Source of the DNA: Psococerastis gibbosa
Lineage: Eukaryota > Arthropoda > Insecta > Psocodea > Psocidae
Reading direction: 5' to 3'
DNA length: 64,000 nucleotides
NCBI GenBank assembly: GCA_963971405.1
Contig: OZ020485.1
Span: 18,137,065-18,201,064, forward strand
Part shown: in pieces, positions 9,285-57,563 of the stretch
How positions within the stretch are numbered: the stretch's first letter is position 1
Layout: every line of letters starts with the position of its first letter
Position numbers and translations under genes: made by a program
The notes under the pieces: generated by a model
What the model was told of the DNA's origin: nothing
Seen by the model: only the letters and a program-made list of their open reading frames with translations
Database searches by the model: none

Positions 9285-9465
9285 ATTGTAGAGTAGTGGT
9301 ACGGACTCAGACTTTCACCCGAAAGGTTGTTGGTTCGAGTGATCGAGTACCACATTTTCTGGTCATGCTTCAGAGGGCATGTAAAGCAGGCGATCCCGCT
9401 TTCCTAATTCCGCTAGCTTGGCTCAGTACTATAACGAAAAAGATCTATTTACTTATTTATATAGC
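9285..9465 (+). repeat. tRNA-derived SINE, copy 1
   Basis: Contains the block GACTTTCACCCGAAAGG followed by a B-box-like GGTTGTTGGTTCGAG, as in tRNA-derived SINE heads. The anticodon-arm-like CTTTCACC resembles tRNA-Glu. Related copies are at 44832-45020 (minus), 47107-47330 and 47748-47915. The tail is AT-rich. Confidence 0.75.
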
Positions 9466-11375: not shown

Positions 11376-12117
11376 TCTCGATTTGGGGCCAAACCACTCG
11401 ATAGAAATCGGTTCAACCACAGACCACAGCTCCAGAATCTACTGTTTTCCAATCGTAGCAAGTAGGTTCGTAAAACTATATTCCACTGGTGTTTATTTTT
11501 TCTTTCAATTTTTCGATATATTCATTTTATTCATATACCCCCAAAACAGACGATTTATTTTAAATTCACATAATATGTATCTTGTAGTACTTGTTTATCA
11601 ATGCAACAAAACTCACTAGGTCATATCTCCCAGGACGTAAAAAAATATGTAAAAAAGGCTCAATTATCATTAAAAATTACTAAATGAATTTTGTGTTGCT
11701 TTTTAACTTCAGGTATGTTTTAGGACTTTAGGTTTCAGTTTCGAATAATTAATAATTAATATTCTATGAAGATGTTATGAATAATCCGAACTCCAATGCA
11801 TACCATATCATTATTATTGCGTAGTCTCTAAAATTAATATTACATTATTGGCCTGTCCATTCAAAACTATGCAAATTTCCCATTGATCAATCCAATGCTT
11901 TAGGGCAGGGAAAATCTATAGGCCTAGACAGCCGGTATTTAACCACGGGACAATTATTTACCATGTAACTATTACGGCATAGCTTGTGGAAACCACGGAC
12001 CAAAAAAAAACATACTAATACAAAAAGCAAGAGCCAGATCAACCGCGTCATAAACCGCAATGAAATTGCGAGTAATAAATACACTCAAACAGCGATCTGA
12101 GAGGGTGTTTTACATAA
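11376..12117. other. intergenic DNA
   Basis: No gene seen. 11785-11925 is a diverged copy of the repeat at 5135-5260. Confidence 0.4.
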
Positions 12118-12501
12118 GGTGCCCATTCCATTGACCGGCTAGGGCTATTTCCAAAAACGGTGACGTGGTAGCAGACATTCAAGGTTTAGGTGGCGTTTCC
12201 ACCGACCTCGCATTGCAGAATTGACGGAAATGTTTATTTTCCTCTATGCCATAGTTAAAATTGATCAATGATCATACAGTAAAATCACAAACAAACAAAC
12301 TAAAATTTAAAAATGGCGTCATGGGATATGTTAAGTACAAACATTTTAATAGATTTCTATAAAAAGAAAAATTCTAATTTCCGTCAATGTCATTTGCATT
12401 CTGCAATGCGAGATCGGTGGAAACGCAACCTAAGTCTTGAATGTCTGCTACCACGTCACTGTTTTTGGAAATAGCCCTAGCCGGTCAATGGAATGGGCGC
12501 C
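12118..12501. mobile_element. composite PIF/Harbinger MITE 1
   Basis: Outer terminal repeats begin GGTGCCCATTCCATTGACCG and end in the matching inverse. Flanks are TAA (12115-12117) and TAG (12502-12504), a mutated 3-bp Harbinger duplication. Two nested layers are visible. The outer palindrome carries GTGGTAGCAGACATTCAAGA on both arms. At its centre sits an inner element with its own repeats (GGTGGCGTTTCCACCGAC). The inner part retains an ATG at 12313 followed by about 23 codons beginning MASWDMLSTNILIDF, nearly the same as the start of the MADF gene at 22315 (MASWDITSTTILINF). It is therefore an internal-deletion derivative of a related autonomous Harbinger. Confidence 0.9.
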
Positions 12502-12504
12502 TAG

Positions 12505-13090
12505 GGGGTGGGTGCACTCACACCTTCCACTTCCTGGGGTCAAAGCTCTACGAGGCTGTAAAGAGGTGTGTCAATAAGCCTTCATATACTGAATGCCCTG
12601 TAACAAGTCCTGTCTGATTGTCTTACTGTTAGTGGCAACTTATTGTACTACCTCACCACATTTGAAACTCTTTGTTTATTCGAAAACGTGTATGAGCGGA
12701 ACACCGAGTTTTTCGATTTTTATACGTGTTGTCGTGTTCCAAGTGACATTCTATCGTGGTGTGCTTCATATATTTGTATCTGACTTGCAGCGACTTGTCA
12801 ACGAGAACAACCTGAACATTGTGCGTCGTGCTAATGCTGCTATTTCGTTGGTGGTATCAATGACCGTGTGCCAACATGATTTAATATATGAAGCATACCA
12901 AAACACCAATCAGAATATTCAGAACACCTTCAGGTGTTCTGGTTATTAAGTGTGTGTTTCGGTTGTTGAGTGCCCAAATATGCTACAACACTATTGGGAC
13001 GAATGATAACCCCCAGAATGTCGTGAAGCAAGATAGAACTTAGATTAGCACTAGCTAGGGTTGGTAGGCCTACTTGGTACAGCTACCTAA
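12505..13090. other. spacer between two composite MITEs
   Basis: A 118-codon open frame (12593-12949) has no recognisable domain and is probably incidental. Confidence 0.4.
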
Positions 13091-13488
13091 GGTGCTCATT
13101 CCATTGACCGGCTAGGGCTATTTCCAAAAACGGTGACGTGGTAGCAGACATTCAAGACTTAGGTGGCGTTTCCACCGACCTCGCATTGCAGAATTGACGG
13201 AAATGGTTATTTTCCTCTATGCTATAGTTAAAATTAGTTAAAATTGATCAATGATCATACAGTAAAATCACAAACAAACAAACAAACTAAAATTAAAAAA
13301 TGGCGTCATGGGATATGTTAAGTACAAACATTTTAATAGATTTCTATAAAAAGAAAAATTCTAATTTCCGTCAATGTCATTTGCATTCTGCAATGCGAGA
13401 TCGGTGGAAACGCAACCTAAGTCTTGAATGTCTGCTACCACGTCACTGTTTTTGGAAATAGCCCTAGCCGGTCAATGGAATGGGCGCC
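13091..13488. mobile_element. composite PIF/Harbinger MITE 2
   Basis: Same nested structure and orientation as 12118-12501, with a perfect TAA duplication at 13088-13090 and 13489-13491. The MADF start codon is at 13300. Small internal differences (a repeated AAAATTAGTT and extra CAAA units) show it is an independent copy, not an assembly duplicate. Confidence 0.92.
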
Positions 13489-13781
13489 TAAGGAAAGGAA
13501 AGGTGTACAAGAGGGGGCATCTGCACAATGTGAGTCAAGCCTCAAGGCTCAGGTTGTAAGGCGGATCCAGTTTTTAATCTAGGGGGGGGGGGGGCCCATA
13601 GACTTGGACCAGCTAGACTCTAGAGGAGATAGGGAGTGGTAATTATTTACATTAGCTGCCACAAGCAGTTTTTGGAATTTTTTTTTTTTTGAAATTTGGT
13701 ATTTTGGCTCAGTTTTTAACGAGGAACACGAATCCGGTTGCCCAATTTCGATAAAAGCAGTAGTTTTTCCAAAAATCCAAC

Positions 13782-22727: not shown

Positions 22728-23126
22728 CATAAAAAATTTTATGAGCAATTTGCAATACCTGCCCATGCAAAAATTATTATTTATTATTATTTACTACTTA
22801 AAAGCATCCTATACTAGGATTTAACATTTTAATGTTATAAAGCAGTTACATTACTTACTTTTTTTTAAAAAATAGGCGGGAAACTACGGAACAATTTTAA
22901 AACTTGTCGTAAATCCGCAAAGGCGCAAACTTCACTATAAAGCAACAAACAAACAAACAAGTAATTCGTGAATTTTATTTTTATTTTTATTGAGTTGAAA
23001 TGTTAAAAAATGTGAGGATTTGTGGGTGTTATGTTAATATACCACGCGAGAAAACTGATAAGTAAGTAATTAATGCCATGTCATGTTATTTACATACAAT
23101 ATTCAGCGGTAAGCAATGGAAATGTT
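22721..23126. repeat. right arm of long inverted repeat
   Basis: Inverted match to 13782-14173. Immediately outside it begins a different repeat (GTACTGTACTAGTAGGTTCA) which also occurs at 34391 and contains the third composite MITE. Confidence 0.8.
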
Positions 23127-23178
23127 TGTACTGTACTAGTAGGTTCATATAAGAGGAAGAGAAAGACCCAGCTACTTA

Positions 23179-23555
23179 GGTGCCCATTCCATTGACCGGC
23201 TAGGGCTATTTCCAAAAACGGTGACGTGGTAGCAGACATTCAAGACTTTCAGGACATTCAAGACCTCGCATTGCAGAATTGACGGAAATGTTTATTTTCC
23301 TCTATGCCATAGTTAAAATTGATCAATGATCATACAGTAAAAACACCAACAAACTAAAATTAAAAGATGGCGTCATGGAATATGTTAAGTACAAACATTT
23401 TAATAGATTTCCATAAAAAGAAAAATTCTAATTTCCGTCAATGTCATTTGCATTCTGCAATGCGAGGTCGGTGGAAACGCCACCTAAGATTTGAATGTCT
23501 GTTACCACGTCACCGTTTTTGGAAATAGCCCTAGCCGGTCAATGGAATGGGCGCC
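23179..23555. mobile_element. composite PIF/Harbinger MITE 3, with an empty site in this window
   Basis: Same nested structure as the 12.1 and 13.1 kb copies (MADF ATG at 23367), though the inner left repeat has a small deletion. Flanks are TTA (23176-23178) and TTT (23556-23558). The DNA on both sides matches 34391-34510, where the two halves join directly around a single TTA (34438-34440). That uninterrupted copy proves the insertion and its 3-bp target. Confidence 0.93.
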
Positions 23556-24329
23556 TTTCTATGACCGCTCGCCAACAACTGACTCGACCAAGTCCTGTCG
23601 CATGCAAGCAGAGACTTGATCGTATACATCACATTCAGGGCTGCCACATTCCGTGGTTTACCTCGGAATTCCGTGGGAAATAATTTTATTCCGAAAAATT
23701 TCCGGGGTCAACAATTTTTGAGGTTTTTCTGTGGGATTTTAGGGAAATTTGTTTTTATTTTATTTTTTAAGATTTTTGTCGAATGACCATTGATTCTCTC
23801 GCGGTTTCATAAAATTTTCGCAAAAATTCAAAAAATATAAACACTATTTCCACCCCGAGCCCTACACCTCCATATGTTTGCATGCTGAAGCAGGGGACCA
23901 ATCGAAAGTCCACCATATTTTGGTCTACAATTTTCGCGCCAAATGAAACTCAATAGTTATCTTATGACAGTTAATTGTCAGCTATTTATTACGACTTAGC
24001 TGTCGTGTATTTCCCGCCGCTAGCGCACTAAAAATTATTTTAGATTTCTGCATGTTTTTAAAAATTTACTAGCTTGAGTAGCTTCAGCTTTGTATAATGA
24101 ATAAAACTTAGATGAACCTGAAATAAGATGACGGGAGTTTCATATCAGCCTATAAAAGTGTGAGGGTGAGAAAAAAGTCAAATCAAATGATTAAATCATG
24201 GGAGCCTATTGCATTATTTCCATCACAAACCTGTGGGGACCACTGACGTCGTGCCGACACCACCGACTCGCACCACTCGCTCAGGTCGTCACATCCACGT
24301 TCCACGACATTTCTCCGACTTCCAGTCTT

Positions 24330-34250: not shown

Positions 34251-34390
34251 CATCACAGCTTACCAATTTGGACCTGTACCGGCTTCTTCCGTAGGCTATT
34301 TGGCATTGTAAAATGAAAAAAACACTAACCGCGATAATTGGACACTAATTGCTGATGAAAAATTACTTAAATACCGATCTGCGCCAATTG

Positions 34391-34680
34391 TACTGTACTT
34401 GTAGGTTCATATAAGAGGAAGAGAAAGACCCAGCTACTTACTATGACCGCTCGCCAACAACTGACTGACCAAGTCCTGTCGCATGCAAGCAGAGACTTGA
34501 TCGTATACATCACAATGTTGTTGTTGGATTTTTGGAAAAACTACTGCTTTTATCGAAATTGCGCAAACGGATTCGTGTTCCTCGTTAAAAACTCAGCCAA
34601 AATACCAAATTTCAAAAAAAAAAAATTCCAAAAACTGCTTGTGGCAGCTAATGTAAATAATAACCGCGCATTGTTTTTTT
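34391..34680 (+). repeat. dispersed repeat containing the MITE 3 empty site
   Basis: 34391-34510 matches the two flanks of the composite MITE at 23179 joined around one TTA. 34515-34680 is the reverse complement of 13640-13781 (TTTTTGGAAAAACTACTGCT, TAAAAACTCAGCCAAAATAC). This links the 13-23 kb structure and this locus as copies of one repeat family. Confidence 0.8.
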
Positions 34681-43480: not shown

Positions 43481-46400
43481 CTGAAAAAAAAGACAGTTAG
43501 TTTGCAAGTTTTCTAATTCAAGTGGAGTCCATACAAGGGCGGATCGAGCCGAAAATTAAGGGGCGTGGGGGTCACAAGTTTTTTGTAAGTTTAAAAAGCA
43601 ATTTTTTTTGTTGTTGAAAAGTTGAGTTTTATTCAAAAAAAATTTACTAGGTATCTTATGAATTTACTCATTTAGGGGGGTCATGACCCCCCGTGGATCC
43701 GCAATTGATTCCATAGAGGGAAGAATGGAGAACAAACAGCTGTAATGGTCCCACGTCCAAAGGATGGGCGAGAAAAGGACCACCCGGAGGTTGGCGGAAG
43801 CAAAGCCACAAGGAAGAAGACCCATCGGCAGACCGGGGACAACCCTCGAGGAAAGGATTGAAAAACTCGCCGGAGCAAGAGGGAAAACAAATGGGTCCGG
43901 GGCGACCCCCCCCCCCCCACCCTGCACACGTGGCATATAAGTGGGAAGAAGAAGAAGCAAGTTTTCCAAGGATCTGGTGGAAGTATTAAAAGAAAACAAC
44001 CATTCTATAACCCGTAAACTAAGTATGTCATTTTCTTTGTATATACTAAAATGCATTACTCCAGTGCCGGATTAGCCACGTAGCAAGTGTAACAAACGCT
44101 ACAGGCCCCGCGAATTTGGGGACCCCACGTTCCAACGCCTATCTGACCGTAATAAAAATATATTAATTTAGATAGAGACGTTTTTTCGAAAATGTTCACG
44201 TTTGTCAAGAATAATAACAAAGAATACGCCTTAGAGCATGATACTTCGGTCCCATAATCTCTTGCTTGCTATTGTTTGGACTTTGGAATCATGGCACTTT
44301 CTATCAGGCGGTAGGTGCATCCGGTTTCCTTAAAGAAGTGGACATTGAAAGTGTTTGATAATGTACATCAAACTGCAGAGGAACATTTCTTTCACATTAT
44401 CACAACTCATTTAAGACTCTGAAATTGATGGTATTTGGTAATTTGTCTCATAAATAACAGATAAATAATGAGTGTAAAAATAAGCATTGTCCTCCGGCTG
44501 TTCTACTGCGACTATCAAAATTAATTATAATTATTGAGAATATGAAAAGGGTATGCGTAGATGGGAGGAGGGTACTTTTTGAAAATTCCAAAGAATGTAT
44601 AACAAATTGTCACGAGATTCATGACCCCCCAAAATAATGTTTTAAAAAGGCGACAAATTGACAACATAAATTTTTAAAAAAACATAAATGAAGCGCCTAG
44701 AAGCCAAGGGGTGCAAGTGACATTTTTTTTACGTTTTGGCGTTAAGTGCATCATGCTGTTCCTTTAGCTGCCCTTTACCCCAGAAAACAAATAAATAAAT
44801 TAAATGAATAAATAAATAAGGAATTATTATTGTTTCTATTACTAAGCCAACCTAGCAGAGTTAGGGCTATAAAGCCCTCTCTTACACACAACTAGGAAGG
44901 CCCGGAACCACCTGCTTTACATGCCCTCCGAAGCATCGCCAGGAAATGTAGCCAGTGTGGGACTCGAACCAACAACCTTTCGGGTGAAAGTCAGAGTCCG
45001 TACCACTACGCTACATGTCTTGACAATAAAAACAAGAGGAACATCGGAATCTGTCATTTTGAGAATGCCAGAATTAATGGAAAATTCATTTTCAATTGAG
45101 TTACAAGCTTAAGCCTCATTTATCTCGAATGTGTATTTTAGTCACTTGCCCCCCTGAGCGCTTCTAATGTGTTATTGTAATATTCTTCTTTAAATGGTTT
45201 CGTGTCGTTTTGTGTGCACCAACCAAAATGGTTCAGAAAAACTAAATCAGTTACGTACTTAAATCAAATACCGCATTGTTTTTATTATCCTCAGTTTATA
45301 CCAGAGGCGGCATTTTCAGGGGTAACCCCCCCCCCTCAAATAAAAGCTCTGTCCGCCACAGACTTAAATCAATTGGCCAATGGCGACAATTCTTAAACTC
45401 CCTCCTAGGGAATAACACACCAATCGTTTTTTGTACACAAAAAGTCAATCATTGTGATCAATCTGTGTTCATAATCAAATCATGTATCAAAATGCTCAGA
45501 AATGTTCTATTTGTCCTCTACGATTGATATACCGTGAGAAATTTGATATCTAAACTTGAAAGCCCCCTTTTCCCTTAGATTGTCTCTCATTAACTAATAA
45601 ATGAAATTCAAATAGTCATAAAATTAAAGAAATGTTCCACTATACATTCTGATGTCCATTACGGCCACAGCACCCGGGTGCGAGCCAGCGGGCCTACTAT
45701 GCCGTTTAGTATAAAACAATTTTGAATAGCTCTTTCCATTATACAATTATCTTGTTACATTTTTAATCCCAGGTTAATATAAAAAAATAATCGCCACAGT
45801 AGTGGGTTGACTGGGGGGGGGGGGGGGGTGGCTTTAGGAATTAATTACAATCAACCAACATACCCGCCTGTTTTCTTCTTTTTTTCCAAGGTCCAACGGC
45901 TCTTGTGCAACATTAGGAAAGTTGTTGTTTCCAAGCCATAATTTGAGGGCATTGTACTGATGAATCTCAAGGGCGTTACGGACAACATCACGTGGCGACA
46001 CGGTCCCGGGTGGCGAATTCTGGGGCAAGGGTGGCGACCCACCTGGGACATCCACTCCCATTCGTCTGCAGTACTCGTTATAGACCGCCTGATTCACGTG
46101 CGGTGCTGACATGGCGTGAAGCGGGCCCACTGCTGAAAATAATAATATTAGATTAGGTATGATTAATCTATATAAATAAAACAGCGTCAAGTTAGTTACA
46201 CCATTTACAACCAATGTTAATTATCTCTGATTGCTTGAATTCGATGCCAAATATCAGAATAACTATTTAAATTCTTTAACGAAGGGTTAGTTGGACTTGC
46301 ATTGCCTGTTGTATTAGTTGTCATTGCCTCTCAGTAATTGAACAAATTAAGGCGGAGCCCGCTGCCTGTGGAAGGGGGCGACGTTTCGGGAGTGGGTGCT

Positions 46401-49400
46401 ACTCCCATCATCAGCAGGCATAGTCTTTAAAAAGACTATTGGTTTCAGGATGATTGCCTCATCGGTCTCAGGACTAAGCCTAATGATTGGAGAAGCACCC
46501 ATTCCCGAAACATTGCCCCCCTTGGATTCCACCAAAATTGTTCGATGACTGTGAGGCCCCTTCCCCCATAATGACATACAACAAGCAATGCAAGATAGAG
46601 ATCAAATGATGCAACTGCCCAAGTCCCGTAACGACGCAGAAAATAGAGCCAAAAATACAGGATACAAAACGCAGGACAATAGAGGCGAGACAATCCGTAC
46701 CTATATAGGTACTGTAGGAGGTAGACCTGTCAGCAACATGGTCAAGATTGATACGGTACCTCCACTTTATAAAAGAAAAGTGTACACTTCTAGGCCGTTG
46801 GGAGGTGCCTACAAATAGTTCAGGTTTGATACCTACATTCGCTATAATAAGAATGCAGTGAACTTTGGCCCCATAATAATTCATCTAGGCTAACTAACTG
46901 TTCTCACTCCTTCGCATTAATGAGGCTATTTCGGAAAGTTTCACTCTGGACATTATATAGGTGCCTTGATGAGTTTTCTCTTTATTAGGTTTGCTAATCG
47001 ACTGGAACAATAAGTTATAGTGAACTGTAAAGGGCCTTCACAATGTCCGTGTTATCGAGTTATCCCTAGTTATATGTATTATATGAAGTTAAGTTATAAC
47101 TCAGGACATGTAGGTTAGTGGTACAGACTCCGACTTTCACCCGAAAGGTTGTTGGTTCGAGTCCCAAACTTGCTACATTTTCTGGCCATGCTTCGGAGGG
47201 CATGTAAAGCAGGCGGTCCCGAGCTTTCCTAGTTGAGTGTAAGAGAGGGCTTTATAGCCCTAACTCCGCTAGGTTGGCTTAGTAATAGAACAAAAAAAGT
47301 CAATATTTATTTATTTATTAAAACTTAACTTTTTAACTTGATTTATGTATTTATTTCGGGTAAAATTTCAGAGTCCTTGTTACAACTCTACTACATGCCC
47401 CAACACATTGATACATTGATCAGTGAAAGGCAGCAGAGGAATATGCAGAGCGTTGTAGACGTGAATTCCAACAGAGCGCCAACGATCTGACAGCATTATT
47501 GATGACGGTGCTAACGAGTTTGCGAGAATATTGCGCCCATTGATTGGCGTACTGGTACTACCTACCCCCCCCCCCCCCCGCATCCATCCCCCTTCCCTCG
47601 AATACCACCCTTCTGTTATAACAACCCCCTCCCTCCGCCTGTATAAAGTTACGAGTTACGAAAGGTGCCCGATCAGAGAGTGCTTCACAACATTTGTAGG
47701 CCTACAAGCATAGCTCCATTGGCAGAGCTTGTGCCGTTGGATCTCATAATCAGGAGTAGTGGCACTGACTCTGACTCTCCCGCCAACGGTTGTTGTTTCG
47801 AGTTTCCCAAACTTGCTGCAGCAGGTAGTCCCGGATCGTCGTAGTTGAGTATAAGAGGGGACTTTATAGCTATAAGTATAAATTCGCTAGGTTGGCTTAC
47901 TAATATCCTGATGGGCTTTTTGTGGATCTATGATCACCTTTAGTGACCCATTGGTTTCTTGCCCAGTGCCAACGATCCCATGAATTTTTTGGACACTATT
48001 GCTTTTTTAATCACATTAATTTTTGGCCATTGGCAAAGTGCTACGCGTCCTTGATGTCAAACTACACCGGCTACAAGCGATTATGGATGACAAGCTGAAG
48101 TTTACCATTGACGCAATGACTACCATGACTTCAGTCACTTCACCAAGTTTGGATATGAGTAGCTAGGTTGGCTTAGCACCAGAACAAAGTAGTCATTATT
48201 TATTGCTTTCCAATTTATACATTAGTATAAGGAAAGCTTTGTGATGGTCGAAATTTTCGATTTCGAGATTTTGAGATCCCAGGAAAATTGTGGAAAAACT
48301 TTTCCATGGATTTCGATGAAATGTGATATGTAACTTTAGAAATCAATCAGTATCATAGTTATTATCTCGGGAGCATTTCTTTTATTTGGGCGAACTTTAA
48401 TTATGGCCCGGTATTACCCTCAACTAGAACAACGTCTAAAATAATTTTTGTCAAAAACGGCTCCCACTGTTTTTTTTATGCATACATATGTAAATGTATA
48501 CATACAATAGGCTTATATTGTAGTCATTATTAATGTAAACAAAACACATTAGATCGCTTTCCCTCTACAGTCCTAGACATTTTAACACTGTGCACCCGAC
48601 CTAAGTTACCTAATGGTCTCAATGACTGGAAAAAAATCAATTTAGAGTTGTATTAGTCTGAAAAATAACGCTGAATTTCAAAATCTGAAACATTGTTGCC
48701 CCCCTTAAAATTATAAATCCGCCCATGTTACCATAGCAACAATGCCAAATGACCGATATGCAGCCCTGCAGCGTAAACGCTTGGCAACGTATCATCTTAA
48801 ATAGGCTCCCAGGGCTTGAACTGTTGCCAACAACAATTCAGAAATTAAAAAAATAAAATAAAAACAATGCAGCAGCGTTTCAAACTAACCACATCCTTTT
48901 TCCTGTCGGATTAATGTATCACTTAGACTTAGGGCAAGGGCGGATACAGGCGAGGAGGGAGTGAGGAGGGGTAGCTGCCCCCCCCCCCATTTAGTAAGTC
49001 TATTGTAAGTCATTACGTTATAATTTAATCGATCCATAATTCAGTTTATTCTATTTCGGACCCACCACAACCCCCACCCCCCCCCCTCGGCAGAATCCGT
49101 CCCTGCCTTAGGGGCTTTCCCACCAACTTCCAGAAAACATATCTTGAAGTAAAAGTAATTCCTGTGCGTCGAAAATATTTTTAGAATCCTGGGGCCACCT
49201 GAAGACACGTTTCGTATGTCTAGCCATTGAAAAAAAAACTTACCAGGTGGTCTCAGGATTCAAAAGATATATTTGTGTTTTCCCATCTCTCCAACATAGA
49301 ACTGTAAGTTTACCTTTTGAATGTTTTCACGCAGAAAGTTTTCCACAAGTAGGTGGGAACTTATTACTCTGCAGGTGATTTCCTCCAATGAATTCATGTG

Positions 49401-52400
49401 CTTCTCTTTTATAACAATTATAACAAAAAAAAATTCTGTTGATTGTAGCAGGTGAGGCGTGAATGAGTCAGGTCCAGTTATAAATACCACTGTAACCACG
49501 GCCTAACACCCCCAAATTTTTACATCATCGATTGACACCGACCGTGTAGCCTTCGTTGCTGTGCCTAATTATTTTTAACCATAATAATATCTAGACAGAG
49601 ATATTTAGTAGGCTAATATATCACCATCACCTTCAGGCTCTATCCGATTCTAATTTTAAATTTGAATTAAAATTTAATCTCCAGAAAAAAAAACAATAAT
49701 TGATTATACAGCATCGCTCACCTATCAATAGAATGTAATGCAATATTTTATTTCTGGAGCGAAGTCAATCAAAAACCGGGTATAAGTTTGACATAGAGCC
49801 TGGGGCCGGCGATCTAACGCAATGGGCAATTTATTATACCTCGTTAGGAATTAATTAAGAACATTTTTTAGTTCGCTGTAGTAGCTTGTTTAAGGGTATA
49901 CATGATAGTTTCCTTATTAACTTTGTAAACCTTAGTGCAGTTTTACGTTATATTAATTATTGTAAGATATACGACCGGGTTTGGCTCACGCCATCGTCAA
50001 GTGCAAGAAAATAAACAAAACAAAAGTATGCAAGCAAAAACATATTTATATTTATTTTATTTATTATATAAAATGTCTGCAATCACGTCAATATCACCAG
50101 TACTATCACTATTAACGTCGGTGTAATTGGCGCCTTATATAGTGTTCGCAACTTGGTACCGGTGCCGGTGCCGGTACTGAGTCCCGGTACCGGACGAACA
50201 CTAGCGCCTTAGCAATTCACTAACTACAACAGTAGTTGTAGGCTACGTAGTTCTTAGACTAACTTAAAGTAGTTGTCAGTTGGTAACGTGCAACTTCATG
50301 TCACGAATATTATGGTGAATATATACTGTATTTATTTATATTTCATAATACAGTAGGCTATCCCGTTTTTAATATTTATTTTATAATTTAAAATTGTATA
50401 ATTTAAAAAGGTAACGTTAACAAAGGAGAACTACAGTACTTAAAAAGGCTTTTTCTTCGCAATATCCTCTTTGATCTTCATAGTTTCTAAATTATCAAGT
50501 AATCTACAATATGGAAAATCATAAAATCAAAGTAACGGTTTGACTGAGCGTCAGGTGTTCCTACTCCGCGTCTGTGTCCCGCTATTCTTTCTTTAAAATA
50601 CCTTCCTGTTTGCCCAGTATACATACCACCACAATTCTTGTTGTATGGTTTAGCAGACATCCCATGATTTCCTCCTTTCTCCAATTTAGGCTTACAATTA
50701 ATAAGTTGTTTACCCAACGAGTTCTCTGAATAATAACAATCGTATTCAGTGGACTACTCTCTACTGCACTCTAAAATCAGCTAGGGAGTCAGTTTCAAGT
50801 ACAAGTGAGTGGTATAGAAGCTAACAGGGCAAAGTCCACAAATTTCTGAAACTTAGTTTTTGACACCGATGGATGAGTCTGGCTGAAATCTATCAGTTGA
50901 ATTTATTATCAGAATTCAGTCATAGTCGAGCGTAAAAGTAGTTAAAAAAAATTGGGCTTCGAAGCAATCACAGGACACTCTCCTGAAAAATTAACCTTAA
51001 CCGAAATGGACTTTGCCCAGTTTGAATGAATGAATGAATGGATGAAAAAAGAAAAACGTATTTATATTAGGCGAGCTTATTCCTCGAAGGGCTACTCTAC
51101 CAGCTAACCTATTTTAGTTCACAAATTGTTATAAAAATTAATATACATTTTATCCTGCAAAAACAAAAAAACAAAATAAAAAGGGATAAAATAATAATGC
51201 AGGAAATCAGGCACTCATTTATTCACTCTCACACTTCACTCTCCAGAAACTGATGGCAGGCTGTCCTAAATCACCCCAAATTATTCTCTGTCCTCGTTTT
51301 TTCTGACAAGGAAGTCCAAAGCATAGGGGTGTTCACTGCAAAGTTTGCACTCAAGTACAATCATACAATTAATAATAGTAGATTATGCAAATACTTACAC
51401 ACTTATACAAGCGTGGGACGGTTTGTATGAATCCTAGTTCCCCTTTGTTGGGTATATTTTCAGTGATAAAACCCTCCAGTACATTCAAACAGTGAGTAAT
51501 TAGACACGCAGTATCTCTCGTTCTCGGTAATAAGTGGAAAAGAGGCGGCAGAACATCTAACTCTGACATTTTGCCGGGGTGAGGAAGATGAATGAAGCCC
51601 AAATATCTCAAACTCAACATCATTAATGCCCCTGATATTAACTCGCAACTAATTGAAACCTAACCAGGGTGAACGAATCGCCACTGGATCGATTGCCTTC
51701 AGACTTTTACCATTTATACTGCCGGCAGGCTATGAGGGACGCTCCCACCTAGTGTAACTAAAGCCATCATGTTAGCATATATAAAGTGCAATCCGAAAGA
51801 TAGTTCCCTCATTTATTTATTTAGGCATATACCTAGTATAAAGTATAAAGCTTTGCGATGGTCGAAATTTTCGATTAAGAAATCGCAACGGATGAATGTA
51901 AACAAAGCAAGAATTGCGGGAAAAGGACTGCATGGACGTCAAAGAAACCACCGGAAGGACGAATTATAAATCGGCCCCTGCGAGAGGGGAGTCCGTAGAC
52001 GGTGGAGACTGGAGAGTCATGTAATACTGACTGGAGGAGTGGAGCCAGAAGATGATGATGAAGAAGAAGAGGAACGTACCTATAAGTAGCACTAGTAGGA
52101 ATAAAGAAAGGACGACATGCTGGAAAAGTTGACGGAAGCGGGATTCTAACCCGAGTCCCCGCCTTGTTGAGGTGGTGTGCTGACCACTGCACCAAATCCA
52201 TCGTCATCTAAGTTAAGTCTCCACATCTTCCCGTACATACAGTATGTGACAATGTTGCACTCAATGCAGGTTTCAACCGATACTTTTGTATCTACTATTT
52301 TTCTAAATCCTCTAATTTCGGTTAAAGTATTCTAATTGTTGTTACATTATAACTTACGATATACATTGTAAATGTAGGAAGGCGGAAAAGCTATACTTAC

Positions 52401-55400: not shown

Positions 55401-57563
55401 ATACAACAACAGCACGTTTAGTGGAGGTGCCGCGATTTGCTTTTAGAGGAGTCAGCACTTAACAAGAAACATTATTGAATGAAATAATCATCCCAAAACA
55501 ATAAACATCAACACAAATGCCTCGTGTCACAAGAAAATAAAAATGAATAACATTCCAGCCATCCGAATATCAAAATTGACGTGTTGATACGTGTCAATAG
55601 ACAACAGGAGGACTACAGCGATAATACACGCGCCCTTGGCCTTTTTATACGTAGCAGCAACAGCGGCCAATTACTGGTCGTCGGAAATCTGTTTGAAGTT
55701 GATTGAAGGATGTCTGATGACACGGTCTCACCTCCATCATTGATCACGCCGTGGTAGCAGACAACCCCAAAATTAGACGCGCCATTGTTATTTTTGACAT
55801 TATATTTCAATTTTAAAATAAACAATGAGTGAAATCATGCAGCTTCGGGCTCCTGTTGTCATTCAGCGTTCGCTTTTTTGTTTCTAAATATTATAAGGTT
55901 AGAGATGCATCCAATGTAAATATTGATGGTTATGAAAATATGTCCTGTTAGTGATTTTGAGTTTTGAATGGATCGGGCTGGTGATGGAAAAAATATATAT
56001 TTTAGACCTTTTGATTGCAAGGAAGGCACGGTGTGGTCTCAACAGACAACTTCCCTATGGTCCTTCAGGTTCGAGCCACATGGAGATACACTAGATAAAT
56101 AGGTAAATAGATAATAGCTATCTTTGTAATTTTAATAATTATAAAATCTTACACTTGGGTGGTAAGGGAAAATGGCTGGACTCTCTAGGGGTAATAGAAA
56201 TTTCAAAAAGCTATGAACTCAGGGAAAAACATTCTAAACGATATAACTTTTATGAGCTAGTGGAGCTTGACGGCAATTTTCCAAAATCACCAACATAAGT
56301 TAAATTTCGCGAAGTTTTTACTTGTTAATTTATGTAATGTTGTTTTGATGTCTTTAGCATGACGATGGCCTAGTGCCGAAACTGGTTGCTTAAAATATAA
56401 TTTCAGTAATGCTTGATAAGGTTATTTTAGTTTTTACTTTATGATACGACTTTGCATTCCAAAATCTTTTGTTTCACATTTTTACCTCGGGAATAAATTA
56501 AGTTACTACCATGTGCTGCGGCTGCTTTTGTGTAGGTGCTACGTCTGTTGAGGGCAGTTTGCCTACGTAGGCTACGAATTGGTAGTAGGATTGAGTTAGT
56601 TGTAAACTTCTAATTTAATTTTTTTGTAGAGTAAATATTGTACTCACTGCGTAATACGGTTTGAGAATGAAAGCTGCACAGGTCATCAGCCGAAACTATT
56701 GAAAGAAGCTTAGGCTTATACTAAATTGGAGCATAAAGGCAATTTCTTAGCTTTTTGAGCAAATGCATTCATGATGAAATGGTTTTCATAACTTCAATTT
56801 CCAAACATACCAAGTGGAAACCAAGCCTGTTCATAACTGCAGAAAAGTGTGGAACATACGTGGGACATGATAACGCGCTCCAAGTGCGTGTCGAGACCTG
56901 GTCACCTCCGAATTAATCGTGTGACTTTCTTTACTGTAGTATGTTCCCCAAGGAATCCACTACAATCAGGAGGTCCACCCTGTCAGTCAACTCCCTTTCT
57001 CCCTGAGGTGAAGGCGTCTGCCCCAAGGGTGCCTCAAGTTAATAAACGGACTCACTCCCCCCGCCTGGCTGACAGGGTTGCTTAAGCAGAAATGCTGAAA
57101 GCAGACGTTCGAAAAACCAAATGCAACCTTTTCCTTGCGCCTCGAGTGTCACCTACACTTTTTGAGATTTTGTTCATTGTCCGCAAGCAAATAGTAATAA
57201 TTATAAGTGATTCCTTATGATTGTGAAGCAGAGCCCATGTTCATACCGTTACCTTTTACGTCTGTCTTTTACTGTTAATTTAAGTAAATACTTCTTTTCA
57301 TTCCATTTCAATTCGGCTGAATGTAAAATATATATTTTTGGTGGGAGGGTCTCATTATATTTACAAATATTGTACTCACTGTGTTCTCAGAGTGAAGGCT
57401 GCGGAAGTAATACTGTTGGGTAGATTTAGTCCTTTTATGATTTCCTGCCACAGCTTCTTCTGTATGACTTCGACAATTCCGCCGCGGGCTGTCACGAGTT
57501 TGAACAGTTCATAGAGATCGAGGACCTGTTTAGCCATGATGGGCAGCCTGGTTATTGGGGTTG
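43214..57563 (-). CDS. dri: ARID3/dead ringer homologue, four 3' exons (partial gene)
   Basis: Exons in order are 57563-57380, 52663-52401, 46132-45864 and 43480-43214. Every junction has a canonical GT/AG pair and compatible phase, giving about 326 residues to the stop. The protein runs from inside the ARID domain (TPITRLPIMAKQVLDLYELF; KKLWQEIIKGLNLPNSITSA) to the C-terminal REKLES-type strand region (TVTMQINGDAYEGVLF). ARID3 proteins are nuclear AT-rich-DNA-binding transcription factors; in Drosophila dead ringer (retained) controls embryonic patterning. A segment in exon 3 (NALEIHQYNALKLWLGNNN) resembles an arthropod dead ringer segment near ALWHMYHNNN, pointing to the arthropod orthologue. 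Introns are 4.7, 6.3 and 2.4 kb and filled with mobile DNA. The 5' exons (start codon, first part of ARID) were not found in 58-64 kb and are presumably outside the window. Confidence 0.9.
43534..43707. mobile_element. hAT-like MITE in ARID3 intron 3
   Basis: 174 bp, ends CAAGGGCGGATC / GGATCCGCAATTG, with 7 of 8 bases of a target duplication matching (AGTCCATA, ATTCCATA). Close relative of 59578-59767 (shared GTCACAAGTTTTTTGTAAGT). Located 54 bp upstream of the terminal exon's acceptor. Confidence 0.8.
43715..43960 (+). pseudogene. RTE-like LINE C-terminal remnant
   Basis: One frame reads WSHVQRMGEKRTTRRLAEAK then GRRPIGRPGTTLEERIEK, the WxGHVxRM...GRRxxGRPxxR pattern of RTE-clade C-termini, with an in-frame stop before it. 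A GAA trinucleotide tail follows. Antisense to ARID3, in its last intron. Confidence 0.65.
44055..44140 (-). repeat. fragment of the CAGTGCCGGATTAG hAT-like MITE
   Basis: CAGTGCCGGATTAGCCACGT, then CTACAGGCCCCGCG. It matches the right end of 59388-59793 in reverse. The other end is missing. Confidence 0.5.
44141..44831. other. ARID3 intron sequence
   Basis: Nothing recognised apart from AT-rich DNA. Confidence 0.4.
44832..45020 (-). repeat. tRNA-derived SINE, copy 2
   Basis: Reverse orientation: GGACTCGAACCAACAACCTT is the complement of the B-box region. GTAAGAGAGGGCTTTATAGC and the CTAGGTTGGCTTAGTAATAG tail are present. Well preserved relative to 47107-47330. Confidence 0.85.
45021..45687. 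other. ARID3 intron sequence
   Basis: AT-rich; a C-run at 45326-45335 next to GTAACC. No gene seen. Confidence 0.4.
45688..45801 (+). repeat. short dispersed MITE-like repeat, copy 2
   Basis: GCCTACTATGCCGTTTAGTA through AATAATCGCCACAGTAG; the inverse of 1346-1475. A G-run (45813-45828) follows. Confidence 0.5.
45864..46132 (-). CDS. dri: ARID3 exon: middle region
   Basis: 269 bp. Donor CGG/GTATGT. The acceptor is TTTTCAGCAG: both AGs (exon start 46132 or 46129) keep the frame, a NAGNAG tandem acceptor that would change the residues at the junction from Thr-Val to Met. Encodes YNEYCRRMGVDVPG, a Pro-rich stretch, and the ALKLWLGNNN block followed by PLDL. Confidence 0.85.
46370..46525. repeat. 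palindromic repeat with two head-to-head ribozyme-like motifs
   Basis: Inverted arms: CGACGTTTCGGGAGTGGGTG on the left and CACCCATTCCCGAAACATTG on the right, around a centre containing AGTCTTTAAAAAGACT. The minus strand of the left arm has a full hammerhead-type core; the plus strand of the right arm has a degenerate one (CCTAATGA...GAAACATTG). Confidence 0.7.
46380..46414 (-). ncRNA. hammerhead ribozyme core (candidate)
   Basis: On the minus strand the order is CTGATGA (46414-46408), T, GGGAGT (46406-46401), loop AGCACCC (46400-46394), ACTCCC (46393-46388), GAAAC (46387-46383), GTC (46382-46380). GGGAGT/ACTCCC is a perfect 6-bp stem II, and both invariant core strands are intact. GAAAC abutting GTC gives the two-base-pair, loopless stem III typical of the minimal hammerheads reported in Penelope-like elements and retrozymes. 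The weak point is stem I: the bases next to the core (CCTG and GCCC) do not pair directly, and only a shifted TGCCTG/CAGGCA pairing is visible. Activity as a monomer is doubtful. Confidence 0.6.
46530..47106. other. ARID3 intron sequence
   Basis: Overlapping short frames on both strands without any domain. No repeat matched. Confidence 0.4.
47107..47330 (+). repeat. tRNA-derived SINE, copy 3
   Basis: Best-preserved copy. tRNA-like head with GGTAC, GACTTTCACCCGAAAGG and GGTTGTTGGTTCGAGTCCC; body with CATGCTTCGGAGGGCATGTA; 3' region GTAAGAGAGGGCTTTATAGC then CTCCGCTAGGTTGGC; A/T-rich tail. Confidence 0.85.
47748..47915 (+). repeat. tRNA-derived SINE, copy 4 (diverged)
   Basis: AGTAGTGGCACTGACTCTGA, CAACGGTTGTTGTTTCGAGT, and TATAAGAGGGGACTTTATAGC-like tail with CGCTAGGTTGGCTTACTAAT. 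More mutated and internally shortened than copy 3. Confidence 0.7.
47920..48150 (+). repeat. dispersed ~200-bp repeat (pair with 10770-10990)
   Basis: TGCCAACGATCCCATGAATT, AAACTACACCGGCTACAAGC and GACGCAATGACTACCATGAC, same order as at 10.8 kb. Followed by another SINE-like 3' end (GCTAGGTTGGCTTAGCACCA, 48160). Confidence 0.55.
48215..48485 (-). repeat. reverse copy of the (CAGA)n-linked repeat
   Basis: AGCTTTGTGATGGTCGAAAT and TTTCGATGAAATGTG-like sequence, complementary to 10260-10450. The microsatellite is absent here. Confidence 0.6.
48935..49105. mobile_element. hAT-like MITE
   Basis: 171 bp, ends CAAGGGCGGATACAGG / AGAATCCGTCCCTG, flanked by ACTTAGGG (48927-48934) and CCTTAGGG (49106-49113), 7 of 8 matching. 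Long C-runs just inside the ends, AT-rich middle. Confidence 0.8.
49106..50070. other. ARID3 intron sequence
   Basis: No gene or repeat recognised. Confidence 0.4.
50071..50134. mobile_element. half copy of the Harbinger MITE at 25837
   Basis: AAATGTCTGCAATCACGTCA through ATTAACGTCGGTG and terminal GGCGCC followed by TTA. Only one arm of the palindrome is present. Confidence 0.7.
50141..50204. repeat. 64-bp GGTACC/GGTGCC palindrome
   Basis: Bounded by GTGTTCG and CGAACAC, with GGTACCGGTGCCGG inside on the left and CCCGGTACCGG on the right. It starts a few bases from the half MITE. Function unknown. Confidence 0.5.
50487..50717 (-). pseudogene. GIY-YIG endonuclease fragment, Penelope-like
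   Basis: The frame reads YNKNCGGMYTGQTGRYFKER then IAGHRRG. This is the start of a GIY-YIG domain as in the C-terminal endonuclease of Penelope-like retroelements (a Cys-containing KCxxCxxxYxGxTxRxFxxRxxEH pattern). MYTGQTG corresponds to the usual YIGQT. No reverse transcriptase adjoins it, so this is an isolated remnant in the ARID3 intron, same strand. Confidence 0.65.
50720..51398. other. ARID3 intron sequence
   Basis: No gene seen. Confidence 0.4.
51399..51631 (-). CDS. candidate exon within the ARID3 intron, unidentified
   Basis: 233 bp between a possible acceptor (GTTAATATCAG) and a strong donor (TGT/GTAAGTAT). The frame (MMLSLRYLGFIHLPHPGKMS, then LDVLPPLFHLLPRTRDTACL, then ITENIPN) is hydrophobic-helical and looks protein-like, but the family is not recognised. 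Its phases (in 1, out 0) are the same as those of the ARID3 exon at 45864-46132. It could replace that exon in frame but could not be included together with it. It may instead be the first exon of another gene (ATGs at 51621/51618). Confidence 0.45.
51880..52085 (+). pseudogene. LINE 3' terminal fragment
   Basis: The end of one frame reads WRLESHVILTGGVEPEDDDE with a GAT/GAA-rich tail, a common ending of LINE proteins. It shares nucleotide blocks with 5925-5990. Non-functional. Confidence 0.45.
52401..52663 (-). CDS. dri: ARID3 exon: end of ARID and proline-rich linker
   Basis: 263 bp. Acceptor TTTTTTTCAG, donor ATCCA/GTAAGT. Completes the split Gln and encodes YMKYLYNYECNKFNLSTEAE and DGNRREGRR, the conserved end of ARID3-type ARID domains. 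A His/Pro/Met/Asn-rich linker (PPHLGHRPHMNGNGHMSHP) follows. Confidence 0.93.
52862..52955 (-). repeat. LINE/SINE 3' end with (TTA)n tail
   Basis: On the minus strand: GTGTAAGAAAGGGCCACTGG, CCCTAACTACGCTG, AATAAA, then (TTA)n (52868-52891). It resembles the SINE 3' region (GTAAGAGAGGGC...GCCCTAACTCCGCT), so it is probably the 3' end of the LINE partner family. Confidence 0.55.
53100..53710 (+). mobile_element. 5'-truncated RTE-clade LINE
   Basis: An open frame of about 187 codons (to 53669) reads KEDVRNRIKSGWAKFRDMSG, VVRPCMVYGSECWAVRKREE, MRMLRKSCGVTLKDRRRNED and LREKRLNWWGHLLRRDEDHL, then GRRLPGRPKLT. This is the classic C-terminus of RTE reverse transcriptases. The 3' end is a short tandem repeat, (GTAAAA)3-4 at 53680-53700, as RTE elements have instead of poly(A). 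Truncated just after the RT palm, with no frame damage. Antisense to ARID3, in its first visible intron. Confidence 0.88.
53711..54639. other. ARID3 intron sequence
   Basis: Open frames on both strands up to 126 codons, none with a domain or splice context. Nothing recognised. Confidence 0.4.
54640..55160 (+). repeat. pair of direct repeats about 390 bp apart
   Basis: 54658-54760 and 55045-55160 share CATCATAA.CACCT.GTCGGACGATATC, then GCTTA and TTATTTATCT. A diverged local duplication. Confidence 0.45.
55161..56339. other. ARID3 intron sequence
   Basis: Mostly unmatched. 55740-55765 contains GTGGTAGCAGACA, the internal phrase of the Harbinger MITEs, possibly a degraded piece. Confidence 0.4.
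56360..56405 (+). ncRNA. degenerate hammerhead-like motif
   Basis: CATGACGATGGCCTAGTGCC followed by GAAACTGGTTGC has the layout CUGAnGA / stem II (GGC...GCC) / GAAAC. The first core strand is mutated, so catalysis is unlikely. Such phrases mark Penelope-like terminal repeats. Confidence 0.25.
56890..56985 (+). repeat. dispersed repeat (pair with 18440-18545)
   Basis: ACCTGGTCACCTCCGAATTA, TTCCCCAAGGAATCCACTAC and AATCAGGAGGTCCAC, in the same order as near 18.5 kb. Confidence 0.55.
56986..57379. other. ARID3 intron sequence next to the ARID exon
   Basis: No gene or repeat recognised. Confidence 0.35.
57380..57563 (-). CDS. dri: ARID3 exon: central ARID domain
   Basis: 184 bp. Acceptor TTGTTGTTTCAG, donor ACACA/GTGAGT. 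Encodes the middle helices of ARID, ending in AAFTLRTQ, with the last Gln codon split across the intron. It needs one base from an upstream exon, so it is internal. Confidence 0.93.

Follow-up and report, generated by a model that had tools for sequence, protein, structure and literature searches.

A palindromic hammerhead-type repeat in Psococerastis gibbosa, probably a copy of a SINE-like family with Penelope-type insertion ends

How a hammerhead-type ribozyme core came to lie within a palindromic repeat is the question raised by a locus in the genome of the insect Psococerastis gibbosa. The window, which is the whole stretch of 64,000 nucleotides analysed here, was taken from contig OZ020485.1 (positions 18,137,065 to 18,201,064), and an original prediction made from its letters had placed such a core on the minus strand, with an inverted and degenerate second copy on the plus strand. 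When the sequence was read directly, the motif was present letter for letter at 46414-46380 as CTGATGA-T-(6-bp stem, 7-nt loop)-GAAA-CGTC, with a perfect stem II, GAAAC and GTC in order and no loop on stem III, and the second copy was also found (Table 1). CUGANGA, GAAA and a cleavable NUH, as expected of a hammerhead core, are all contained in 46414-46380. The motif lies in an imperfect palindrome of approximately 320 bp (46275-46594), and we consider it probable that this palindrome is an old copy of a non-autonomous retroelement that is abundant, resembles a short interspersed element (SINE) and is mobilised by a Penelope-like element (PLE).

The palindrome was used as a query against the 409-Mb source genome of the window and gave 89 matches, with 40 of 1539 first-look candidates scored. 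From the listed matches, 39 loci (L009-L047) were fetched, leaving out the window's own place. The alignment, which has 54 rows including two from the window and leaves out matches shorter than 46 nt, shows the motif in nearly all rows. The exact core pattern CTGATGAN{8,38}GAAACGTC matched the genome 620 times (312 + 308), compared with 20 times for the reversed pattern. The original prediction was right in that the motif is of the hammerhead type, resembles those of Penelope elements and lies in a repeat. Among approximately 100 core matches listed, the same stem and loop occurred in most and point changes in many. Most fetched copies have a common architecture, where a head of about 70 nt is followed by a linker and then by a 186-nt arm with the motif. 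The head consensus contains TGGTCGAGTGG and, 45 nt later as counted by hand, GTTCGAATCC, which we take to fit box A and box B of RNA polymerase III (Pol III) type 2 promoters. The head carries a putative promoter of the kind that characterises a SINE, with box A and box B inside the element. When the head was used as a query, 40/40 scored of 1283 first-look candidates were head-bearing copies. One locus (L011 1220-2632; C3, ~43525-43527 kb) is a tandem array of about five palindromic units of 274 bp, each carrying on both strands either the motif or a close variant of it, and would be a natural place for dimeric hammerheads.

The ends of the copies were mapped on a model of 353 nt, composed of head and linker (133), arm (186) and tail (34), using 42 copies, namely the first loci without the L011 array (38/39) and L084-L087; the window copy is not among them. 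An inverted piece of the element lay within 60 nt of the 5' end in 18/42 copies, and at the 3' end in 0/42. Considering that the first loci came from a palindromic query, we repeated the count on a head-chosen sample of 27 of the 40 listed copies (20 newly fetched and 7 fetched earlier), where the inverted piece was found at the 5' end in 12/27 and at the 3' end in 0/27; among the 20 new copies the counts were 7/20 and 0/20, respectively. Thirteen of the 18 inverted pieces extend to the 3' end of the element (model 319 or beyond). The 3' ends of the direct copies cluster at model 317-322 in 14/42 and at 351-353 in 11/42, two points that are about 34 nt apart. The tail was present on the inverted piece and absent from the direct copy in 8/18 cases, the reverse held in L021, L026 and L031, and it was on both in 0/18. 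Target duplications with a score of at least 10 (10-17 bp) were found in 10/42 copies compared with 0.0008 of mismatched flank pairs. An earlier scan had been weak (6/35 at a score of at least 9, against a 5% control) because it ignored the inverted 5' pieces. In L018, L021, L031 and L045, four of the ten, the duplication surrounds the whole inverted-plus-direct composite, so the composite was inserted as a single event. Accordingly, the family has both the head-to-head inverted terminal piece and the optional 3' tail by which PLE insertions are recognised. The original prediction had called the head-to-head arrangement unusual; on the contrary, inverted head-to-head pseudo-long terminal repeats (pLTRs) are described as the commonest inverted arrangement in the PLEs of Adineta (PMC3846280).

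The palindromic shape of the window copy, together with its 19-nt outer inverted repeat of 95% complementarity, would also suit the remnant of a DNA transposon, either a miniature inverted-repeat transposable element or a foldback element, whose terminal inverted repeats resemble a hammerhead by chance. However, fixed terminal inverted repeats on both sides were not found, since the inverted pieces lie at the 5' end only and vary in length. The length of the duplications varies as well, and the motif recurs in PLEs with other stem sequences, as described below. A DNA transposon is thus a very improbable source of the window feature.

PLE lineage A of the same genome shows the end pattern of the family. 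A GIY-YIG search gave 48 matches; loci L053-L082 represent 30 of them, and L088-L105 cover the remaining 18 by their 3' sides; in L072, RVT_1 and GIY-YIG lie in one frame, which is the PLE arrangement. The 3' ends of lineage A (9 loci, one of them as query) fall at query 185-188 or 236-237, giving a tail of about 49 nt, and in the 5/9 loci that have two opposite copies (L055, L057, L058, L062 and L070) the tail is on exactly one of them; at the 5' end, the lineage A PLE of L070 has a piece of the tail in inverted orientation. Hammerhead-type motifs sit approximately 330-450 nt past the GIY-YIG motif. They read CTGATGA-T-GGTG-TAA-CACC-GAAA-CAGCTG-TA in lineage A, CTGTAGA-T-GGCA-GTTCT-TGCC-GAAA-GCGC-TC in lineage B and TTGAGAA-T-GACA-ATC-TGTC-GAAA-CCGG-TC in lineage C, with stem I, assigned by eye, as TTAGT/ACTGA, CCCT/AGGG and TCAC/GTGA, respectively. 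A strict core-plus-stem filter caught the motif in 9 of the 30 loci L053-L082, and a looser pattern, designed once the motifs of lineages B and C were known from reading by eye, caught it in 11 of the other 18; in the remaining 7/18 (L090, L092, L094, L097, L101, L102 and L104) it was uncaught, and L092 has a degenerate one by eye. The letters of stem II change while its pairing stays, from GGGAGU/ACUCCC in the family to GGUG/CACC, GGCA/UGCC and GACA/UGUC in lineages A, B and C. The extra U before stem II and a palindromic stem III (ACGU in the window family) are found in all three lineages as well as in the family. Compared with the hammerhead consensus, lineage B deviates at A6. Lineage C deviates at C3 and G8; here the core 3-8 pair is U3-A8 instead of C3-G8, apparently by a natural compensatory change. 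The lineage C motif with U3 and A8 stands beside a paired stem I in L091 and L099, and by eye in L060.

A hammerhead-like string that arose in a repeat by chance, without ribozyme ancestry, would be in keeping with the lack of an Rfam match and of any excess conservation within the family. Nevertheless, the PLE lineages of the same genome have the whole syntax with different paired stems, and a core plus stem is rare by chance: CTGANGA followed by a perfectly paired stem of 4 bp or more and by GAAA occurred once in the window (stem 6), compared with 6 times in 300 first-order Markov replicates, and the same core with a stem of at least 5 bp occurred in 4/600 replicate strands. The bare CTGANGA...GAAAC pattern is weaker evidence, as it occurred twice in the window against a shuffle mean of 0.5, and 9/100 shuffles reach 2. 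We therefore give chance resemblance little credence. The Rfam hammerhead covariance models gave no match to the window motif, and the RF00008 genome search gave no match either, nor any in its control. As Rfam also misses the hammerhead-type motifs of the PLE loci L056 and L058, we rejected it as a judge and do not regard its negative result as decisive. The original prediction had named as counting against it a missing covariance hit together with copies lacking a conserved motif; the first of these occurred, but in view of the PLE motifs that Rfam misses this test does not decide.

The main doubt of the original prediction had been the poor pairing of stem I. This is the case in the window copy, where CTGATGA is preceded by ATGCCTG instead of the AAGC of the family; because of this 3-nt insertion, seen in the family alignment, the stem I pairing beside the core is gone, and the window copy lacks its stem I and is probably inactive. 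Neither this insertion nor the extra T before stem II had been mentioned in the original prediction. The defect is not peculiar to this copy, as stem I is weak throughout the family. In the genome-wide copies, on which a check of stem I had been suggested, it pairs at the two positions beside the core in 38/46 and 40/46 rows, followed by an internal loop and no pairing beyond. In the Anolis PLE, the hammerhead did not cleave without added protein and catalytic mutants still inserted (PMC11167929), and for these reasons the motif may, by analogy, be more important as a structure than as a cutter.

As to mechanism, we somewhat favour the idea that a Pol III SINE took over from a PLE the 3' recognition module that bears the hammerhead, and spreads by PLE reverse transcription. 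Pol III would transcribe the element, and the reverse transcriptase/GIY-YIG nuclease of a PLE of the same genome would recognise the hammerhead-bearing 3' module. Reverse transcription would begin at either of two sites, which is our proposed reason for the optional tail, and the complementary DNA would be inserted with a short target duplication. At the other end, self-priming or template switching would add the inverted 5' piece and so produce head-to-head palindromes. Cleavage of RNA by the hammerhead would take place mainly in dimers, which the self-complementary stem III (ACGU) would allow, or with protein help.

Several results weigh against this account and against the ribozyme identity of the motif. 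Besides the weakness of stem I and the silence of Rfam, CTGATG is taken up by a competing hairpin in the predicted fold, and no compensatory change was found in stem II within the family. Conservation in the family is 0.966 for the core and 0.976 for loop II with N7 and the extra U; in the head-chosen sample, it is 0.90 for the motif, 0.83 before it, 0.89-0.92 after it and 0.96 for the head, with the core kept in 13/27 copies and 2/27 ending before the arm. Since core and motif are no better kept than their surroundings, motif conservation as a sign of selection is unsupported; the pattern is that of neutral decay after insertion, which is neutral on the activity of source copies. In addition, 5/18 inverted pieces stop short of the 3' end of the element (outer ends 53-291), 17/42 direct copies have their end outside the two 3' clusters, and clear target duplications are confined to 10/42 copies. 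Neither ARAGORN (13 loci) nor Rfam calls a tRNA in the head, and for this reason its tRNA derivation is something we can only infer. PLE coding sequence was not found beside copies L009-L051, in flanks of mostly 0.5-0.8 kb searched with mostly C-terminal queries, and with no open reading frame (ORF) for reverse transcriptase and GIY-YIG beside these copies, the element is not shown as an autonomous PLE. The arm was the element's own 3' end in 0/48 GIY-YIG matches, and a 3' end in common with an autonomous partner, as expected of a SINE, was thus not seen among these matches, a search that is not exhaustive; since only the best candidates are scored, an arm-ended PLE is not shown to be absent. 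The PLE partner is accordingly suggested by the pattern of the ends and not by common sequence. In L070 and L099 the arm is present as a separate insertion and not as the end of the PLE. L070 had been considered as a PLE carrying the arm, and this was rejected, as a lineage A fragment (~1187-2010) is nested in an arm palindrome with the 13-bp target duplication CATCACGTCCTTC on both sides by eye. On C1 (L087), where two arms are separated by 3.1 kb, the idea of a PLE lying between them was also rejected, because these are two separate copies and there is no PLE match.

These negative results bear on another account, in which the arm itself represents the pLTR together with the beginning of the gene in a PLE lineage, autonomous or decayed, the headed copies are a by-product of fusion, and the window feature is a PLE relic. 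The palindromic, arm-against-arm copies, namely the window copy, L009, L020, L026 and the L011 array, have no head, which agrees with it. So does L087, where one frame of the arm, on the minus strand from 505, stays open from the linker across the hammerhead and counts 107 codons from stop to stop; its ATG lies at A9-U-G like that of the Anolis PLE, and is possibly a fossil PLE gene start. On the other side stand the missing PLE ORF beside the arms of L009-L051, the missing arm-ended PLE in the 48 GIY-YIG matches and the many headed copies found with the head query; some headed copies (L012, L015 and L028) have their own target duplications. A PLE relic in this sense seems unlikely to us; it overlaps with the SINE-like reading, and the odds of the two do not sum to one. 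A metazoan retrozyme without long terminal repeats (LTRs), meaning a tandem-repeat hammerhead element that spreads via circular RNA, would similarly place a hammerhead in a short non-coding repeat, and the L011 array of 274-bp palindromic units is tandem. However, just one of the 39 fetched loci is such an array, the motif has no helix III of the kind found in canonical type I hammerheads, the dispersed copies have PLE-type ends, and retrozymes are described as being without motifs that reveal their mover (PMC7761336). A retrozyme is hence a highly unlikely explanation, and the SINE-like element mobilised by a PLE remains our preferred reading.

In the window, both motifs lie inside a 41-nt inverted repeat that is 85% complementary, with arms 65 nt apart, and the head model gave no BLAST match in window 45401-47400. 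A match of the palindrome to MIR5380 was rejected, as it scored 33.9 bits against a cut-off of 150 and the inverted repeat accounts for it. The label of an ARID3 intron given in the original prediction was not confirmed, the 2 ORFs of the region being without a Pfam match. GIY-YIG gene remnants of PLEs were found by tblastn at 50735-50446 (-) and 56125-56275 (+), each followed by a degenerate hammerhead-like string recognised by eye near 50001 (-) and 56360 (+). A tRNA-like Rfam match (32.3 bits) lies at 52131-52201 (-). Another dispersed repeat family has direct and inverted copies near the region (9287-9398, 47109-47221 and 44827-45023), and further direct and inverted repeat copies extend across 20 kb (12110-13496, 23126-23633 and 34388-34665).

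Table 1. Parts of the palindrome and of its two hammerhead-type motifs, in window positions
Feature	Position	Strand	Details	Basis
Motif, arm 1	46380..46414	-	core CTGATGA 46414-46408	sequence, pattern match, family alignment
Motif, arm 1: extra T	46407	-	between A9 and stem II	
Motif, arm 1: stem II	46406-46401 / 46393-46388	-	GGGAGT/ACTCCC, perfect 6 bp	
Motif, arm 1: loop II	46400-46394	-	7 nt	
Motif, arm 1: GAAA, then C, then GTC	46387-46384, 46383, 46382-46380	-		
Motif, arm 1: predicted cut site	between 46380 and 46379	-		
Degenerate motif, arm 2	46480..46514	+	CTAATGATTGGAGAAGCACCCATTCCCGAAACATT; CTAATGA for CTGATGA, ATT for GTC	sequence, row win_arm2 of alignment
Arm 1	46275..46445	-	copy of the family's 186-nt arm (model positions 8-184), motif in sense	BLAST of arm model, 80% identity
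Arm 2	46466..46594	+	inverted arm copy (model positions 22-163), head-to-head with arm 1	BLAST of arm model, 75% identity
Outer inverted repeat	46296-46314 / 46576-46594		19 nt, 95% complementary	
Palindrome centre	46415..46479	none	arm 1 upstream linker (GATGAGGCAATC, minus strand) and small AT-rich hairpin	repeat spacing

Minimal hammerhead ribozymes of PLEs were reportedly described by Cervera and de la Pena in 2014 and by Luense et al. in 2017. The family shares with the minimal hammerheads of PLEs the core, stem II, GAAA, a loopless helix III and a palindromic stem III fit for dimers, and with the PLEs of the same genome the extra U before stem II. It differs in that its hammerhead is located in a SINE-like element without a reverse transcriptase gene, with a stem II of 6 bp and a stem III that is only ACGU. 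Minimal hammerheads without helix III are the form described for PLEs (PMC6155905), and this form is found in the window motif and in the family. An inverted pLTR beside a direct one, an optional 31-bp tail and junction palindromes have been described in PLEs (PMC3846280), where the tail, unique to PLEs, is attributed to two adjacent start sites of reverse transcription (PMC11167929). The Adineta Pen families and Anolis PAc share with our family the head-to-head inverted piece, the optional tail and the short target duplications, whereas the family has no ORF and carries a box A/B head in its place. Short nonautonomous Penelope elements of heliconiines (PMC6685494) resemble it in being short, nonautonomous and assigned to Penelope; the description there gives no structure, no hammerhead and no Pol III head. 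In the literature searched, which was mostly without subscription papers, no SINE moved by PLEs was found, and PMC6685494 alone mentions short nonautonomous Penelope elements. Metazoan retrozymes (PMC7229834 and PMC7761336) and Schistosoma Sm-alpha (PMC6155905) are, like the family, short non-coding repeats with a hammerhead, which is of type I, and retrozymes could count as a novel family of SINEs (PMC7761336). Unlike the family, most invertebrate retrozymes have a stable helix III and they form tandem repeats and circular RNA; PLE-type ends are not described for them in the accessible parts of these sources. PLEs have been named as likely candidates for moving animal retrozymes, and the activity and role of PLE hammerheads were still called a mystery in a 2020 review (PMC7761336). 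If our reading is true, Pol III transcripts can exploit PLE retrotransposition in trans, and a new kind of SINE-partner pair exists in which the partner is neither a long interspersed element nor an LTR element. A multi-copy SINE with PLE-type ends would also be a natural experiment, where hundreds of short copies map the features of an RNA template that a PLE enzyme requires, and whether the hammerhead is among them. Taken together, the class of the motif is known, and what is new is a SINE-like family that combines a PLE-type hammerhead with PLE-type insertion ends.

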